Assembly (NCBI RefSeq): GCF_026339995.1
Contig: NZ_JAPEPT010000001.1
Span: forward strand, 2,041,001 to 2,105,000
Length of the DNA stretch: 64,000 bases
Reading direction: 5' to 3'
DNA from: Streptomyces sp. NBC_01481
GTDB taxonomy: Bacteria > Actinomycetota > Actinomycetes > Streptomycetales > Streptomycetaceae
Part shown: one piece after another, positions 18,726 to 43,855 of the stretch
How the letters are laid out: the number at the start of each line of letters is the position of its first letter
How positions within the stretch are numbered: the stretch's first letter is position 1
Program-made: the position numbers and the translations under genes
Notes under the pieces: generated by a model
The model's input: only the letters and a program-made list of their open reading frames with translations
Database searches by the model: none
What the model was told of the DNA's origin: nothing

Positions 18726-18757
18726 AAGCGGCGGCGGGCCGATGCCCGCCGCCGCTT
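18726..18757. terminator. Bidirectional terminator
   Basis: A perfect 14-bp stem AAGCGGCGGCGGGC with loop CGAT ends in TTTT. It separates the binding-protein gene from the convergent response regulator. Confidence 0.9.
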
Positions 18758-18779: not shown

Positions 18780-19451
18780 CTACTGTGCGCCGGGGCGCAC
18801 CAGACCGCTCTCGTAGGCGTACACCGCCGCCTGCACCCGGTCCCGCAGGCCCAGCTTCGTCAGCACATGGCCCACATGCGTCTTGACGGTGGTCTCACTG
18901 ACGAAGAGATCGGCCGCGATCTCGGCATTGGACAGCCCCCGCGCGACCAGCTTGAGCACCTCCACCTCGCGCTCGGTCAGCGTGTGCAGCGTGTCCGGGA
19001 CCGGCTCCTCGCCCGAGGGCAGATGGTCCGCGTACTTGTCGAGAAGCCTGCGGGTGATGCTCGGCGCGAGCATTGCCTCGCCCGCCGCGACCACCCGGAT
19101 CGCCTGGACCAGCTCATTGGCGGGCGCGTCCTTCAGCAGGAAGCCGCTCGCCCCGGCCCGCAGCGCCTCCACCACGTACTCATCGAGGTCGAAGGTGGTC
19201 AGCACCAGCACCTTCGCCGGGCCGTCCCGCCCGGGGCCGGTGATCTGACGGGTCGCCTCGACGCCGTCCATGCGGGGCATCCGGATGTCCATCAGCACCA
19301 CATCGGGCTGCAGCGCACGCACCTGGTCGATGGCCTGCAGACCGTCCCCGGCCTCGCCGACCACCGCGATGTCCTGCTCCGCCTCCAGGATCATCCGGAA
19401 GCCGGTGCGCAGCAGCGGTTGGTCGTCGACCAGTAGGACGCGGATAGCCAC
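18780..19451 (-). CDS. NarL/LuxR-type two-component response regulator
   Basis: 223 residues. The receiver domain has the acidic pair VDDQ (9-10), the phospho-acceptor Asp55 in LMDIRMP and Lys near 105 in LKDAP. A LuxR HTH occupies the last ~65 residues (LTEREVEVLKLVARGLSNAEI). Phosphorylation should drive dimerisation and promoter binding. No histidine kinase gene is adjacent in the window, so the partner is unknown. It lies 13 bases after the RecB-like gene on the same strand, so the two are probably cotranscribed. If so, the damage-type promoter of the nuclease would also feed this regulator. Confidence 0.92.
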   Translation of the reverse strand: MAIRVLLVDDQPLLRTGFRMILEAEQDIAVVGEAGDGLQAIDQVRALQPDVVLMDIRMPRMDGVEATRQITGPGRDGPAKVLVLTTFDLDEYVVEALRAGASGFLLKDAPANELVQAIRVVAAGEAMLAPSITRRLLDKYADHLPSGEEPVPDTLHTLTEREVEVLKLVARGLSNAEIAADLFVSETTVKTHVGHVLTKLGLRDRVQAAVYAYESGLVRPGAQ

Positions 19452-19464
19452 GGGTACTCCTTAG

Positions 19465-20325
19465 TTAGACCGGGCCCATTCTGCCCTGACCATCCTCTGC
19501 CGAAGCGGTCGGGGAGACGCTCAGCGGATATACCGGGGGAGTGCCGCCGAATTCCGGACAGACCGCCTGGTGGTCGCACCAGCCGCACAGCTTCGTCGGC
19601 CGCGGCCGCCAGTCGCCCGTCTCGGTGGCCAGCCTGATCGCGTCCCAGAGTGCCAGCAGCTTGCGCTCCACGCGCTCCAGGTCCGCCGGGGCAGGGTCGT
19701 ACGTCAGCACCTCTCCGCTGCCCAGATAGACGAGCTGGAGGCGGCGCGGCACCACGTTCTTCAGCCGCCAGATCACCAGGGCGTAGAACTTCATCTGGAA
19801 CAGCGCGCCCTCGCTGTACTCGGGGCGCGGGGCCTTGCCCGTCTTGTAGTCGACGATCCGGACCTCGCCGGTGGGCGCGACATCGACCCGGTCGATGACA
19901 CCGCGCAGCCGCAGCCCCGACTCCAGCTCCGTCTCGACGAACAGCTCCCGCTCGGCCGGCTCCAGTCGGGTCGGGTCCTCCAGCGAGAACCACCGCTCCA
20001 CCAACTGCTCCGCCTTGGCGAGCCAGCCGGTCAGCCGCTCGCCTTCGGAGTCCTCCGCGAACAGCTCGCCCAGCTCCGGCTTCGTCTCCAGCAGCCGGTC
20101 CCACTGACCCGGGATCAGGGCCTTGGCACGCGGAGCCGTTCGCTCCGCCGCCGGCGCGTCGAAGAGCCGCTCCAGCACCGCATGCACCAGCGTCCCGCGG
20201 GTAGCCGCCTCGCTGGGCTTCTCCGGCAGCTTGTCGATCACCCGGAACCGGTACAGCAGGGGACACTGCATGAAGTCGCTCGCACGCGAGGGCGACAGCG
20301 ATGTGGGCTGCTGACTCGTACTCAT
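19465..20325 (-). CDS. RecB/Cas4-like PD-(D/E)XK nuclease with probable Fe-S cluster
   Basis: 286 residues from ATG 20325. RecB-family nuclease motifs are present: GTLVHAVLERLF (His), GVIDRVD and IVDYKTGK (catalytic Asp and Lys). One Cys near residue 21 (MQCPLLYRF) and a C-terminal CGWCDHQAVC give the four cysteines that hold a 4Fe-4S cluster in Cas4/AddB-type enzymes. The protein likely processes DNA ends as a stand-alone exonuclease. Its minus-strand promoter is a TGTCAGTG-N8-TAGGGT element whose -10 ends 7 bases before the ATG, implying a leaderless transcript under PafBC-type DNA-damage control. It is the first gene of a pair with the response regulator. No other CRISPR-associated genes are nearby, so a Cas4 role is unlikely. 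Confidence 0.88.
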   Translation of the reverse strand: MSTSQQPTSLSPSRASDFMQCPLLYRFRVIDKLPEKPSEAATRGTLVHAVLERLFDAPAAERTAPRAKALIPGQWDRLLETKPELGELFAEDSEGERLTGWLAKAEQLVERWFSLEDPTRLEPAERELFVETELESGLRLRGVIDRVDVAPTGEVRIVDYKTGKAPRPEYSEGALFQMKFYALVIWRLKNVVPRRLQLVYLGSGEVLTYDPAPADLERVERKLLALWDAIRLATETGDWRPRPTKLCGWCDHQAVCPEFGGTPPVYPLSVSPTASAEDGQGRMGPV

Positions 20326-20332
20326 GACGCAG

Positions 20333-20354
20333 ACCCTACGGCCCGCCACTGACA
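20333..20354 (-). promoter_or_regulatory. PafBC-type (RecA-NDp-like) promoter of the RecB-like nuclease
   Basis: Minus strand: TGTCAGTG (20354-20347), 8 bases, TAGGGT (20338-20333), then 7 bases to ATG 20325. This matches the mycobacterial DNA-damage consensus TTGTCRGTG-N8-TAnnnT at every scored position except the first T. Confidence 0.7.
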
Positions 20355-20445
20355 GCGAGCGGAATACCATCGACGTCAGACCCTCGAAACTGCATGATCG
20401 AACGAGCGAAGCATTCGCGACACATTCGCGACAAAAAGGGGACCC

Positions 20446-36842: not shown

Positions 36843-37799
36843 ATGGCCATTGCCAAGGCCGAGCGGCTGATGAATCTGGCGCTGTGTCTGCTGGGCACCC
36901 GCCGCCCGCTCAGCAAGCGCGAACTGCGCGGGTCCATCGAGGCCTACCTGGAGGCCGGTTCCGACGACTCCTTCAACCGGATGTTCGAGCGCGACAAGGA
37001 CGACTTGCGCGAACTCGGCCTGGTCATCGCGACGGTGGAGAACCTCGACGGTGAGACCGGCTATCTCGCACGCCGCGACTCCAACCGGCTGCCCGCCATC
37101 ACACTCGACGGCGAAGAGGCGGCCGCACTCGGCCTCGCGGCCAAGGTCTGGCAGCAGGCGCGCCTCGCCGGAGCCGCAAGCGGCGCTCTGCAGAAGCTGC
37201 GTGCGGCCGGTATGCCGGAGGCAGAGGACTCCTACGAGGCGCACCACAGCGCCCTCGAACCCCGAATTCCCGTCCACGAGGCGGCCTTTGAGCCGCTGAT
37301 GCTCGCCTGTCGCGACCGCCGCCCCGTCGTCTTCGACTACCGCAAGGCAAACGCCGCGCGCCCCGGGCAGCGCCATGTCGAACCATGGACCCTCGAATGC
37401 TGGCGCGGGCACTGGTATCTGGCGGGCTGGGACCGCGACCGCGGCGCCGAACGGGTCTTCCGGCTTTCGCGTATCACCGGTCGGGTCCGCTCGCGCGCCG
37501 GCTCGTTCACCGCGCCCGTGCCCGATGTCGTCACCGTCCGGGAGACCGTCGAGACCTGGGCCGGGGAGACCGCCACCCGTTCCGCGCGGATCCGGCTGCG
37601 CACCGGCTGCGGCTACCCGCTGCGCTCCAGGGCCCAGTCCATACGGGAACTGGGGGAGGGCTGGGACGAGTTGGAGATTCCGTACGGACACGGGCTCGAC
37701 GCCTGGCTCGTGGAGTTCGGCCCGGACGTCGTCGTACTGGAGCCCGCGGATCTGCGGGCCGATGTGGTCGAGCGGCTGCGCGCCGTGGCCAAGGGCTGA
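36843..37799 (+). CDS. pafB: WYL-domain regulator PafB
   Basis: 318 residues. An N-terminal winged HTH (about 1-70), a central WYL domain (about 135-210, with WTLECWRGHWYLAGWD) and a WCX C-terminal extension. Together with PafC it forms the PafBC activator, which in mycobacteria drives LexA-independent DNA-damage genes, probably in response to single-stranded DNA. The stop lies 17 bases before pafC. It is named for its linkage to pafA but is not needed for pupylation. GGAAGGG precedes ATG 36843. Confidence 0.93.
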   Translation: MAIAKAERLMNLALCLLGTRRPLSKRELRGSIEAYLEAGSDDSFNRMFERDKDDLRELGLVIATVENLDGETGYLARRDSNRLPAITLDGEEAAALGLAAKVWQQARLAGAASGALQKLRAAGMPEAEDSYEAHHSALEPRIPVHEAAFEPLMLACRDRRPVVFDYRKANAARPGQRHVEPWTLECWRGHWYLAGWDRDRGAERVFRLSRITGRVRSRAGSFTAPVPDVVTVRETVETWAGETATRSARIRLRTGCGYPLRSRAQSIRELGEGWDELEIPYGHGLDAWLVEFGPDVVVLEPADLRADVVERLRAVAKG

Positions 37800-37816
37800 G
37801 GGGGACTCGGACAACC

Positions 37817-38773
37817 ATGGCCGCCAATGCCATCGACCAGACCCGGCGGATGCTCTCGCTGGTGACCTATCTGCGCGAGCGCCCCGGCGCGCGCGTCGGT
37901 GATGTCGCCCGCGCCTTCGGCATCACCGAGGACGAGCTGATCTCCGACCTCGACGTCCTGCCGATGTGCGGGACGAGCTTCCGGGGTGGCGATCTGCTCG
38001 ACATCGACACAGACGGTGACCGCATCTGGTGGCACAACCCCGACGATGTCGCCGAGCCGCTGCGGCTCGCGGCCGACGAGGCGACGGCGCTGCTGGTCGC
38101 CGCGCGCGCCGTGGCCACGCTGCCGGGCCTGCGCGAGAGCGACCGGCAGGCGCTGCTGCGCGCCACCGCGAAGCTGGAGACGGCCGCGGGCGAGGTGGCC
38201 GGGGCCAGCTCCCGGCTGTCGGTCACCTTCGAGTCCGAGGGCGGCGTCTTCGCCGAGGTCGACCGGGCGATCTCGGAACGGCGCCGGCTGTGGCTCAAGT
38301 ACTACTCGCCCGCGCGCGACGAACTCACCGAGCGCGAGGTCGACCCGATCAGGCTCTTCGCGGTGGGACACACGTATATGGAGGCCTGGTGCCGTCTCTC
38401 CGAGGCGCGCCGGACCTTCCGTCTCGACCGGGTGGCGGAGATCAGGCTGCTCGACGCCCCCGCGGCGCCGCCCGAGATCGAACTGCGTGATCTTTCGGAG
38501 GGGCTGGTCCAGCCGTCGGCCGACGATCCCGAGGTCGTGGTCGAGGTCGGCCCCGGCGGGCGCTGGGTCGCGGAGTACTACCCGCACGACAGCGCGGAGG
38601 AGCTGCCCGACGGGGGGCTGCGCATCACGCTGCGTACGCCTGCTCCCGCCTCGCTGCGACGGCTCGCCCTGCGGCTGGGACAGGACGGGCGGATCGTCTC
38701 GCCGCAGGACCTGGCGGACAGCGCCCGGCTCGCGGCGCGCGAAGCGCTCGAGGCCTATGACGGTGAGGAATGA
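37817..38773 (+). CDS. pafC: WYL-domain regulator PafC
   Basis: 318 residues with the same architecture as PafB: HTH (about 5-65), WYL core (about 145-225, RRRLWLKYYSPARDELTEREVDP) and WCX domain. It is the partner of PafB; the two together recognise the extended -35/-10 promoter TTGTCRGTG-N8-TAnnnT with RNA polymerase. Several sequences of that form occur in this window. The last codons are part of a 22-bp tandem duplication that carries the stop. Confidence 0.93.
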   Translation: MAANAIDQTRRMLSLVTYLRERPGARVGDVARAFGITEDELISDLDVLPMCGTSFRGGDLLDIDTDGDRIWWHNPDDVAEPLRLAADEATALLVAARAVATLPGLRESDRQALLRATAKLETAAGEVAGASSRLSVTFESEGGVFAEVDRAISERRRLWLKYYSPARDELTEREVDPIRLFAVGHTYMEAWCRLSEARRTFRLDRVAEIRLLDAPAAPPEIELRDLSEGLVQPSADDPEVVVEVGPGGRWVAEYYPHDSAEELPDGGLRITLRTPAPASLRRLALRLGQDGRIVSPQDLADSARLAAREALEAYDGEE

Positions 38774-40994: not shown

Positions 40995-41016
40995 TGTCAG
41001 TGGTGGCGGGTAGGCT
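40995..41016 (+). promoter_or_regulatory. PafBC-type (RecA-NDp-like) promoter of the helicase gene
   Basis: TGTCAGTG at 40995-41002, 8 bases, TAGGCT at 41011-41016. It matches TTGTCRGTG-N8-TAnnnT except for the first T (C here). The expected start near 41023 leaves only about 4 bases before ATG 41027. Confidence 0.72.
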
Positions 41017-41026
41017 CGTGAGCAAG

Positions 41027-43855
41027 ATGACCGAGGACCTCTCTCCCGCCGAGCGCTACGCCGCCGCCCGCATCCGCGCTGCTGAGGAGGCCACTGCACT
41101 GGCCCCCTTCCGCGCGATGTACGAATTCGAGCTGGACCCTTTCCAGATCGAAGCCTGTCAGAGCCTGGAGGCGGGCAAGGGCGTGCTCGTTGCCGCGCCC
41201 ACCGGTTCCGGCAAGACCATCGTCGGCGAATTCGCCGTCCATCTGGCCCTTCAGCAGGGCCGCAAGTGCTTCTACACCACGCCCATCAAGGCCCTTTCCA
41301 ACCAGAAGTACACCGACCTGGCCAAGCGCTACGGCCCGGAGAAGGTCGGCCTGCTCACCGGCGACAACAGCGTCAACTCCGAAGCCCCCGTGGTCGTGAT
41401 GACCACCGAGGTGCTGCGCAACATGCTGTACGCGGGCTCGCAGTCGCTGCTCGGACTCGGCTACGTGGTCATGGACGAGGTGCACTACCTCTCCGACCGC
41501 TTCCGCGGGGCCGTGTGGGAGGAAGTGATCATTCACCTCCCCGAGTCGGTGACTCTGGTGTCCCTGTCGGCGACCGTGTCCAATGCCGAGGAGTTCGGCG
41601 ACTGGCTCGACACCGTCCGCGGCGACACCGACGTCATCGTCTCCGAGGAGCGGCCCGTGCCGCTGTGGCAGCACGTCATGGCCGGCCGCCGGATGTACGA
41701 CCTCTTCGAGGAGGAGACCGACCACGGCGGCCGCGGCCCCGGCCGGCGCGAGGTCAATCCCGAACTCGCCCGTCTGGCACGGATGGAGAACCAGCGCACG
41801 TACAACCCCAAGGACCGCCGCCGCGGAAAGATGGTGCGCGAGGCGGACCGGGAGCGCGAGCGGCGCCAGCGCACCCGGATCTGGACACCGGGACGGCCGG
41901 AGGTCATCGAGCGGCTGGATGCGGAAGGGCTGCTGCCCGCGATCACCTTCATCTTCAGCCGCGCCGCCTGCGAGGCCGCCGTACAGCAGTGCATGTACGC
42001 GGGACTGCGGCTGAACAATGACGAGGCGCGTGCGAGGGTGCGCGAAATCGTCGAGGAGCGGACCTCCGCCATTCCGTCCGAGGACCTTCATGTCCTTGGC
42101 TATTACGAGTGGTTGGAAGGACTTGAGCGGGGCATCGCCGCGCACCACGCGGGCATGCTGCCGACCTTCAAGGAGGTCGTCGAAGAGCTCTTCGTCCGTG
42201 GTCTGGTGAAGGCCGTCTTCGCCACCGAGACGCTGGCGCTCGGCATCAACATGCCCGCCCGCTCCGTGGTGTTGGAGAAGCTCGTCAAGTGGAACGGCGA
42301 GCAGCACGCCGACATCACCCCCGGTGAGTACACCCAGCTCACCGGACGGGCCGGGCGGCGCGGTATCGACGTCGAGGGCCATGCGGTCGTGCTGTGGCAG
42401 CGCGGCATGGATCCCGTCGGTCTCGCCGGGCTCGCGGGCACTCGCACCTACCCCCTGCGCTCCAGCTTCAAGCCCTCGTACAACATGGCCGTCAATCTTG
42501 TGCAGCAGTTCGGGCGGCACCGCTCGCGCGAGCTGCTCGAGACGTCGTTCGCGCAGTTCCAGGCGGACAAGTCCGTCGTCGGCATCTCCCGCCAGGTGCA
42601 GAAGAACGAAGAGGGACTTGAGGGCTACCGCGAGGGAATGACCTGCCACCTGGGGGACTTCGAGGAGTACGCGCGGATGCGCCGCGACCTGAAGGACCGC
42701 GAGACGGAACTGGCCAAGCAGGGCGCGGCCCAGCGTCGGGCGGCTGCTGCCACGTCGCTGGAAAAGCTGAAGCCGGGCGATGTCATTCATGTCCCCACGG
42801 GCAAGTTCGCGGGCCTCGCGCTGGTCCTCGACCCGGGTATCCCGGCGGGACGGAGCAACGGCCACCGCGGGTTCGAGCACCACGACGGCCCCCGTCCGCT
42901 GGTGCTGACGGCCGAACGGCAGGTCAAGCGGCTGGCGTCGATGGACTTCCCGGTGCCGGTGGAGCCGCTGGAGCGGATGCGGATCCCGAAGTCCTTCAAC
43001 CCGCGCTCGCCGCAGTCGCGCCGCGACCTGGCCTCCGCGCTGCGGACGAAGGCCGGGCACATCGAGCCCGAGCGGCACCGCAGGAACCGGGCGGCAGCGG
43101 CCGACGACCGCGAGATCGCCCGGCTGCGCACGGAGTTGCGGGCGCATCCGTGTCACGGCTGCGACGAGCGCGAGGACCATGCGCGCTGGGCCGAGCGCTA
43201 CCACCGGCTGCAGCGTGACACCCGCCAGCTGGAGCGCCGGATCGAGGGCCGGACGAACACCATCGCCCGTACCTTCGACCGGATCGTGGCGCTGCTGACC
43301 GAGCTGGACTATCTGCGCGCCGACGAGGTCACCGAGCACGGCAAGCGGCTCGCCAGGCTGTACGGGGAGCTGGATCTGCTGGCGAGCGAGTGCCTGCGCG
43401 ACGGTGTGTGGGAGGGGCTCAGCCCGGCCGAACTGGCCGCGTGCGTCTCGGCGTTGGTGTACGAGGCGCGTCAGTCGGACGACGCGGTCGCACCCAAGGT
43501 CCCGGCGGGGAAGGCGAAGGCCGCGCTCGGCGAGATGGTCCACATCTGGGGCCGGCTCGACGCGCTGGAGGAAGAGTTCAAGATCAACCAGGCGGAGGGT
43601 GTCGGGCAGCGGGAGCCGGATCTCGGCTTCGCCTGGGCCGCGCACCAGTGGGCCTCGGACCGGACGCTGGACGAGGTGCTGCGCGAGGCGGAGATGCCAG
43701 CGGGTGACTTCGTACGGTGGACGAAGCAGGTCATCGACGTGCTCGGGCAGATCGCGGCCGCGGCGCCGCGCGAGGGCAGCACGGTCGCGAAGAACGCGCG
43801 CAGGGCGGTCGACGCGCTGCTGCGGGGTGTCGTGGCGTACAGCTCGGTCGGCTGA
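41027..43855 (+). CDS. Ski2-like DEAD/DEAH-box helicase (HelY family)
   Basis: 942 residues from ATG 41027; a GTG at 41018 is possible but sits one base from the -10 box. RecA-like domain 1 has Walker A APTGSGKT (about 60-67) and DEVH; domain 2 has the TGRAGRRG motif VI. A C-terminal DSHCT domain fills the last ~170 residues, as in the Mtr4/Ski2 and mycobacterial HelY families. Such enzymes unwind RNA or DNA with 3'-5' polarity. A central insert of ~60 charged residues (about 230-290) lies between the RecA domains. A PafBC-type promoter suggests induction by DNA damage. The bidirectional terminator downstream ends the unit. Confidence 0.92.
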   Translation: MTEDLSPAERYAAARIRAAEEATALAPFRAMYEFELDPFQIEACQSLEAGKGVLVAAPTGSGKTIVGEFAVHLALQQGRKCFYTTPIKALSNQKYTDLAKRYGPEKVGLLTGDNSVNSEAPVVVMTTEVLRNMLYAGSQSLLGLGYVVMDEVHYLSDRFRGAVWEEVIIHLPESVTLVSLSATVSNAEEFGDWLDTVRGDTDVIVSEERPVPLWQHVMAGRRMYDLFEEETDHGGRGPGRREVNPELARLARMENQRTYNPKDRRRGKMVREADRERERRQRTRIWTPGRPEVIERLDAEGLLPAITFIFSRAACEAAVQQCMYAGLRLNNDEARARVREIVEERTSAIPSEDLHVLGYYEWLEGLERGIAAHHAGMLPTFKEVVEELFVRGLVKAVFATETLALGINMPARSVVLEKLVKWNGEQHADITPGEYTQLTGRAGRRGIDVEGHAVVLWQRGMDPVGLAGLAGTRTYPLRSSFKPSYNMAVNLVQQFGRHRSRELLETSFAQFQADKSVVGISRQVQKNEEGLEGYREGMTCHLGDFEEYARMRRDLKDRETELAKQGAAQRRAAAATSLEKLKPGDVIHVPTGKFAGLALVLDPGIPAGRSNGHRGFEHHDGPRPLVLTAERQVKRLASMDFPVPVEPLERMRIPKSFNPRSPQSRRDLASALRTKAGHIEPERHRRNRAAAADDREIARLRTELRAHPCHGCDEREDHARWAERYHRLQRDTRQLERRIEGRTNTIARTFDRIVALLTELDYLRADEVTEHGKRLARLYGELDLLASECLRDGVWEGLSPAELAACVSALVYEARQSDDAVAPKVPAGKAKAALGEMVHIWGRLDALEEEFKINQAEGVGQREPDLGFAWAAHQWASDRTLDEVLREAEMPAGDFVRWTKQVIDVLGQIAAAAPREGSTVAKNARRAVDALLRGVVAYSSVG

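Follow-up and report, generated by a model that had tools for sequence, protein, structure and literature searches.

The minus-strand element at positions 20354-20333 of the 64-kb stretch of Streptomyces DNA analysed here (the window) is very probably a promoter of the RecA-NDp or PafBC type, making a leaderless, damage-inducible mRNA for a nuclease of the PD-(D/E)XK class. Direct reading of this strand gives TGTCAGTGGCGGGCCGTAGGGT, i.e., the -26 element TGTCAGTG, eight further bases and the -10 box TAGGGT, followed by CTGCGTC (7 nt) and the ATG of the nuclease gene at 20325. This confirms the initial annotation, which had described a motif-N8-TAGGGT block on the minus strand ending 7 nt before the nuclease ATG. 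The assignment draws on the sequence itself, on the chance level of the pattern and on its conservation in 91 of 92 loci of the genus. PafBC binding, activation by single-stranded DNA and damage induction at this promoter are extrapolated from mycobacterial work, and the transcription start is predicted, from the spacing between the -10 box and the start codon, to coincide with the A of the ATG or directly adjoin it (20325-20332, minus strand).

The nuclease and its upstream element

The nuclease gene (19465-20325, minus strand; TAA stop at 19467-19465) encodes a RecB/AddB/Cas4-like protein of 286 amino acids with a single Pfam nuclease domain (PF12705, 6.1e-41). The residues H48, D145 and D159-x-K161 as well as the cysteines C21, C247, C250 and C256 are identical in 110 of 110 aligned orthologues (110 of 111 sequences, the unreadable L141 being left out). 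The protein thereby combines the catalytic H, D and (D/E)-x-K of a PD-(D/E)XK nuclease with the four cysteines of the AddB/Cas4 type, an arrangement which we take to be the pattern of the AddB/Cas4-type iron-sulphur nucleases, in line with the earlier proposal of a RecB/Cas4-like nuclease. Only five solved chains matched the nuclease at E ≤0.01 (best E 1.8e-5), all of them named UvrD/REP or DNA helicase and matching one C-terminal stretch; they presumably represent AdnAB. Between the start codon and the conserved core, the N-terminal stretch is about 50 to several hundred nt long depending on the locus (L001-L080), with constant promoter spacing, and is enlarged by repeats in L022.

The pattern TGTCNNTG-N8-TANNNT occurs twice in the window, compared with 0.07 matches expected from shuffled sequences (0 of 100 shuffles reached two). 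The second match (40995-41016, plus strand) is a promoter of the same type 10 nt from the ATG, at 41027, of a HelY-like helicase with DEAD and DSHCT domains, and is the other site before a DNA-processing enzyme to which the initial annotation had alluded. Here, TGTC-N12-TA-N3-T is found in 21 of 21 Streptomyces at 9-10 nt from the ATG, which differs from the nuclease spacing, and 12 of the same 21 have the TGTCRGTG form. Both sites share a TGTC-type -26 element and a TAnnnT -10 box at fixed spacing. No obvious LexA-type SOS box was seen by eye, judged against the LexA consensus, in the intergenic region of about 120 nt 5' of the nuclease. Repeated ATTCGCGACA units and a GCGAA-GCA-TTCGC inverted repeat at 20400-20440 (plus strand), upstream of a divergent M50 protease gene, could represent a possible regulator site.

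The initial annotation had proposed aligning the regions upstream of orthologues and had named a lack of conservation there as evidence against the promoter; the block proved to be conserved. The motif lies 5' of the nuclease orthologue in 80 of 80 Streptomyces loci (78 by script, L080 by eye and L022 at position 2123), which lean toward close relatives because they are the best 80 of 581 confirmed loci. When the window and 11 further Streptomyces loci are added to these 80, an in-frame start codon stands 6, 7 or 8 nt past the -10 box in 91 of the 92 genus loci (3, 41 and 47 loci, respectively), the lone miss being L134, where the contig has no more than 130 bases ahead of the match. Within the genus loci, seven motif positions are fixed by the selection itself. 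Among the remaining ones, the G, T and G of TGTCNGTG reach 2.0, 2.0 and 1.91 bits, compared with an average of 0.29 bits for 110 positions lying farther upstream.

In the same class outside Streptomyces, the nuclease gene is present in 18 of 26 sampled genomes, and 17 of these 18 loci contain TGTC-N12-TA-N3-T, each with a start codon 6-8 nt on; the orthologue L138 is without TGTC. For more distant genomes, 20 loci were drawn from the 131 matching genomes that follow the first 30 loci, and 8 without a usable anchor were left out; this looser motif was found in 6 of the 12 readable upstream regions, three of the six coming from one genus. Two distant loci, L169 and L173, have no TGTC motif and carry TGTGACAC, then a TAnnnT-like box and a start codon 5' of the nuclease, perhaps reflecting a different promoter type in other classes.

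The response regulator gene downstream

The nuclease gene is followed by a gene for a NarL/FixJ-type response regulator with receiver and LuxR HTH domains (18780-19451, minus strand). As had been noted before, 13 nt (CTAAGGAGTACCC) separate the nuclease stop from the GTG of the regulator at 19451, and a Shine-Dalgarno-like AAGGAG precedes this start. A GC-rich hairpin 3' of the regulator (18726-18757, minus strand; -41.5 kcal/mol for 65 nt folded, z = -5.6) probably marks the end of the transcription unit. The other neighbour of the regulator, besides the nuclease, is a convergent gene that by eye resembles one for a solute-binding lipoprotein.

All 93 genus rows (the window and L124 being one locus) have the regulator 3' of the nuclease, versus none of the 18 same-class loci outside the genus. 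The gap between both genes measures 9-16 nt in 69 of the 93 rows and 26-275 nt in 19, and is negative in five, which reflect unsettled gene-end calls. Outside the genus, 9 of 74 genomes encode relatives of the regulator with 73-79% identity, and at one of the seven readable loci among these (L206) the nuclease with a TGTC-N12-TA-N3-T motif stands directly upstream of the regulator. In the 11 Streptomyces loci L125-L135, the regulator is 95-98% identical, versus 78-90% for the adjoining nuclease.

Just before the regulator, the 13-mer CAGGGCAGAATGG (19476-19488, minus strand) forms a second conserved element, which recurs unchanged in 83 of 92 genus loci and has a single exact copy in the genome. 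On a relaxed form, 90 of the 92 loci align, one row (L014) on a wrong match, with each position 97-100% identical. The 13-mer is mostly found 33-37 or 68-74 nt from the regulator start codon, 3' of the nuclease stop in 20 of the 90 loci and inside the nuclease coding sequence in other species. This conservation at the DNA level suggests that the regulator has its own promoter or binding site.

Whether the regulator is mainly expressed from such a promoter and hence not meaningfully induced by damage appears to us evenly balanced, and this would be compatible with a damage promoter at the nuclease. The near-invariance of the 13-mer and its uniqueness in the genome speak for it, as do its position beyond the nuclease stop in part of the loci and the wider intergenic gaps in 19 rows, whereas the short gap in most rows and the strong hairpin after the regulator argue for transcription together with the nuclease. 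Moreover, the 13-mer is a putative promoter and both sources can operate together, so that the regulator may receive damage-induced read-through as well as separate control. The co-induction of the regulator claimed by the initial annotation is plausible in view of the 13-nt gap, the invariant adjacency and the hairpin, but is not secure because of the separate conserved element. From gene order, we take the regulator to be likely SCO1654 of S. coelicolor. The only literature found under this probable name is a table listing it as an orphan NarL-type regulator (PMC9739842, as far as the accessible part of that paper goes).

Genome-wide sites, PafBC and leaderless starts

The nuclease site belongs to a larger set. 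The genome of the strain (7.70 Mb) contains 46 motif matches versus 6 for the reversed pattern, and when TGTCRGTG is combined with spacers of 4-12 nt, a spacer of exactly 8 nt accounts for 43 of the 49 matches, the other eight spacers sharing the remaining 6. All of 61 Streptomyces genomes hold between 20 and 76 sites (mean 45.8, total 2791), compared with 27 control matches (0.44 per genome). In the Pfam scan, which covered 44 of the 46 downstream proteins, 17 of the 46 sites precede genes with repair, recombination or replication domains, a raw count without a genome-wide baseline. These targets comprise RecA, UvrB, the methylguanine methyltransferase Ogt, a RadA-like protein (which we take as such from its domain set), RuvC, DnaE, DnaX, endonuclease III, uracil-DNA glycosylase, an AlkZ-like glycosylase, two UvrD helicases, a DEAD helicase, an RNase_T exonuclease and a RecD2-HHH protein, together with the nuclease and the HelY-like helicase of the window. 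One further site is located 5' of ribosomal S6, a gene that often has ssb on its 3' side. No Pfam match at 1e-6 was obtained for 12 of the 44 scanned proteins, and other targets have no evident repair role, e.g., FolB, two FAD oxidoreductases, a DUF4253 protein, a PrsW protease and a MoaA-like protein; part of the sites in this genome may be chance matches. At the locus L116 (C9:1664803-1665971), uvrB and ogt are divergent and each have a promoter copy of their own, the two copies lying about 1.1 kb apart with 6 and 7 nt to the ATG.

In mycobacteria, PafBC acts through RecA-NDp sites (PMC6789036, PMC8223512), with PafB reading the -26 motif together with SigA and PafBC joining RNA polymerase once it holds single-stranded DNA (PMC11804915; all three as far as their accessible parts go). 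The window itself encodes both proteins: pafB (36843-37799, plus strand) is named from its WYL and WCX domains and its position after pafA, and pafC (37808-38773, plus strand, approximate start) has HTH_PafC, WYL and WCX domains (PF19187, 2.2e-31); pafA and mpa are located in the same window. The PafC family model matches in 38 of 38 same-class genomes. It is not specific, however, since it also picks up 5 of 14 control genomes, including E. coli and B. subtilis, three of the five scoring over the cut-off, so that a match does not by itself prove PafC. Natural absence of PafBC was considered as a test of dependence and offered no contrast, as all 38 same-class genomes have a PafC match. Likewise, all 12 readable distant loci come with a PafC-family match, the six motif-bearing and the six motif-less alike. 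Taken together, the conserved element, the fixed spacer, the repair targets and the presence of pafB and pafC in the window lend good comparative support to the PafBC-type class proposed at the outset, and PafBC control of the Streptomyces sites is suggested by analogy.

It is unlikely that the sites form a real, conserved damage promoter that in Streptomyces is operated by another protein, e.g., ClgR. A ClpR/ClgR-like regulator has been described to recognise the P1 motif in mycobacteria (work cited in PMC5656591, in its accessible part), and a PafBC-like response in Streptomyces was left open in PMC9380542. Against this, cross-linking in vivo found PafBC bound at RecA-NDp (PMC6789036), pafB and pafC are both encoded in the window, and the -26/-10 geometry fits the sigma adaptation described in PMC11804915, each paper being cited from its accessible part. 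In the PafBC-type mechanism that we favour, DNA damage would lead to PafBC loaded with single-stranded DNA, which would contact TGTC(A/G)GTG and stand in for a -35 element, so that the housekeeping RNA polymerase could read the promoter. Transcription would then begin at the A of the ATG or immediately beside it, yielding a leaderless nuclease mRNA whose synthesis would rise on DNA damage. Each Streptomyces genome would have about 45 promoters of this kind, the nuclease site being one of them, and roughly half would have a start codon in the putative leaderless position.

This last estimate derives from the start distances. In the strain's own genome, where distances were taken to the first start codon in the best open frame, this codon stands 6-8 nt past the -10 box at 19 of 45 assigned sites (L096, at a contig end, was dropped from the 46), and every other 3-nt interval contains 4 sites or fewer; a later start was chosen by judgement for L110, L117 and the HelY-like site, and the count is 18 without L117. 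Across 21 Streptomyces genomes, an ATG or GTG is located 6-8 nt downstream at 554 of 1022 sites, versus about 8% expected from the RTG frequency in the window, and 468 sites have none at this distance. For S. coelicolor, 21% of primary transcripts are reported to be leaderless (PMC4895711, accessible part), and if the codons counted here are the starts, the bias at these sites appears to exceed that background.

An alternative, which we rate slightly lower still than a different regulator, is a real promoter at a gene whose main mRNA begins at a more distant upstream site and has a leader, in which case the short spacing would be incidental. The frame is indeed open far upstream in the window (669-codon open frame), but the spacing of 6-8 nt persists across loci in which the motif lies anywhere between 77 and about 390 nt from the conserved core (farther still in L022), so that it is not a by-product of coding conservation. 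In addition, the ATG after the motif is the sole in-frame ATG, GTG or TTG from the upstream stop to the conserved core in L001, L032, L051, L057 and L073, and the same spacing recurs at the 554 sites. The conserved spacing fits the leaderless transcript originally proposed, whose 5' end is predicted from it. Finally, a chance string, for which the shortness of the motif alone could speak, can be practically dismissed in view of the excess in the window and in the genome, the preference for a spacer of 8 nt and the recurrence in 61 of 61 genomes and 91 of 92 genus loci.

Implications and comparison with known systems

The promoter type as such is already known in Streptomyces; what is added here is the nuclease as a target, the genome- and genus-wide scale, the specificity of the spacer and the leaderless bias. 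More tentatively, and with a little less than even confidence, we propose a Streptomyces PafBC regulon of about 45 promoters per genome with leaderless mRNA as its usual design, the activator-dependent promoter and the start codon forming one unit of about 32 nt. Damage-induced repair mRNAs would then lack a Shine-Dalgarno leader and could be translated when ordinary initiation is limited, and the regulon would also reach the very conserved response regulator, linking DNA damage to a two-component output. The data suggest that many damage-induced repair genes of Streptomyces are translated from leaderless mRNAs, and they provide a lead on this regulator.

According to the accessible part of a 2022 study, the M. 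smegmatis motif did not turn up as conserved in S. venezuelae in an initial search, and a PafBC-like damage response is stated as remaining to be shown in Streptomyces (PMC9380542); because that search did not detect the mycobacterial PafBC motif, a RecA/LexA-independent damage response was left open there. With the motif in all 61 Streptomyces genomes, a list of repair targets and a clear mutable site, this question is now directly testable. No paper on a PafBC regulon or on leaderless PafBC targets in Streptomyces was found among the titles and abstract openings of the open-licence literature.

With the AddB/Cas4-type iron-sulphur nucleases, the window protein shares H...D...D-x-K and C...CxxCx5C; it differs in its size of 286 amino acids and in having no adjoining helicase or CRISPR gene, and its iron-sulphur cluster is putative. 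We presume that Rv2119 of M. tuberculosis is the orthologue of the window nuclease, with a shared gene neighbourhood. The gene rv2119 is described as encoding a putative recB-like exonuclease of the RecB family and was over-expressed in a mitomycin-treated recA mutant (PMC8151990, accessible part), which is in line with a damage promoter at the window nuclease.

RecA-NDp promoters have been reported for Streptomyces recA and SCO6735 (PMC5087735, PMC9411070; the primary papers of 2002 and 2004 via citations), and SCO6735 of S. coelicolor, with its RecA-NDp-type promoter, is UV-inducible (PMC5087735). They represent the same element in the same genus, whereas the nuclease target and the genome-wide scale do not appear in the accessible parts of those accounts. 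A further close match would be the mycobacterial RecA-NDp (P1)/PafBC system of M. smegmatis and M. tuberculosis, with which the sites described here have in common the repair-gene targets, the location of pafBC beside Pup-proteasome genes and the TGTC-N12-TA-N3-T geometry, since the motif described for M. tuberculosis is TGTCGG, TGTCAG or TGTCAC-N10-TA-N3-T (PMC8151990, accessible part). In Streptomyces, by contrast, TGTC(A/G)GTG-N8-TAnnnT predominates and is often followed by a start codon after 6-8 nt, and its control by PafBC is a prediction from the mycobacterial case.
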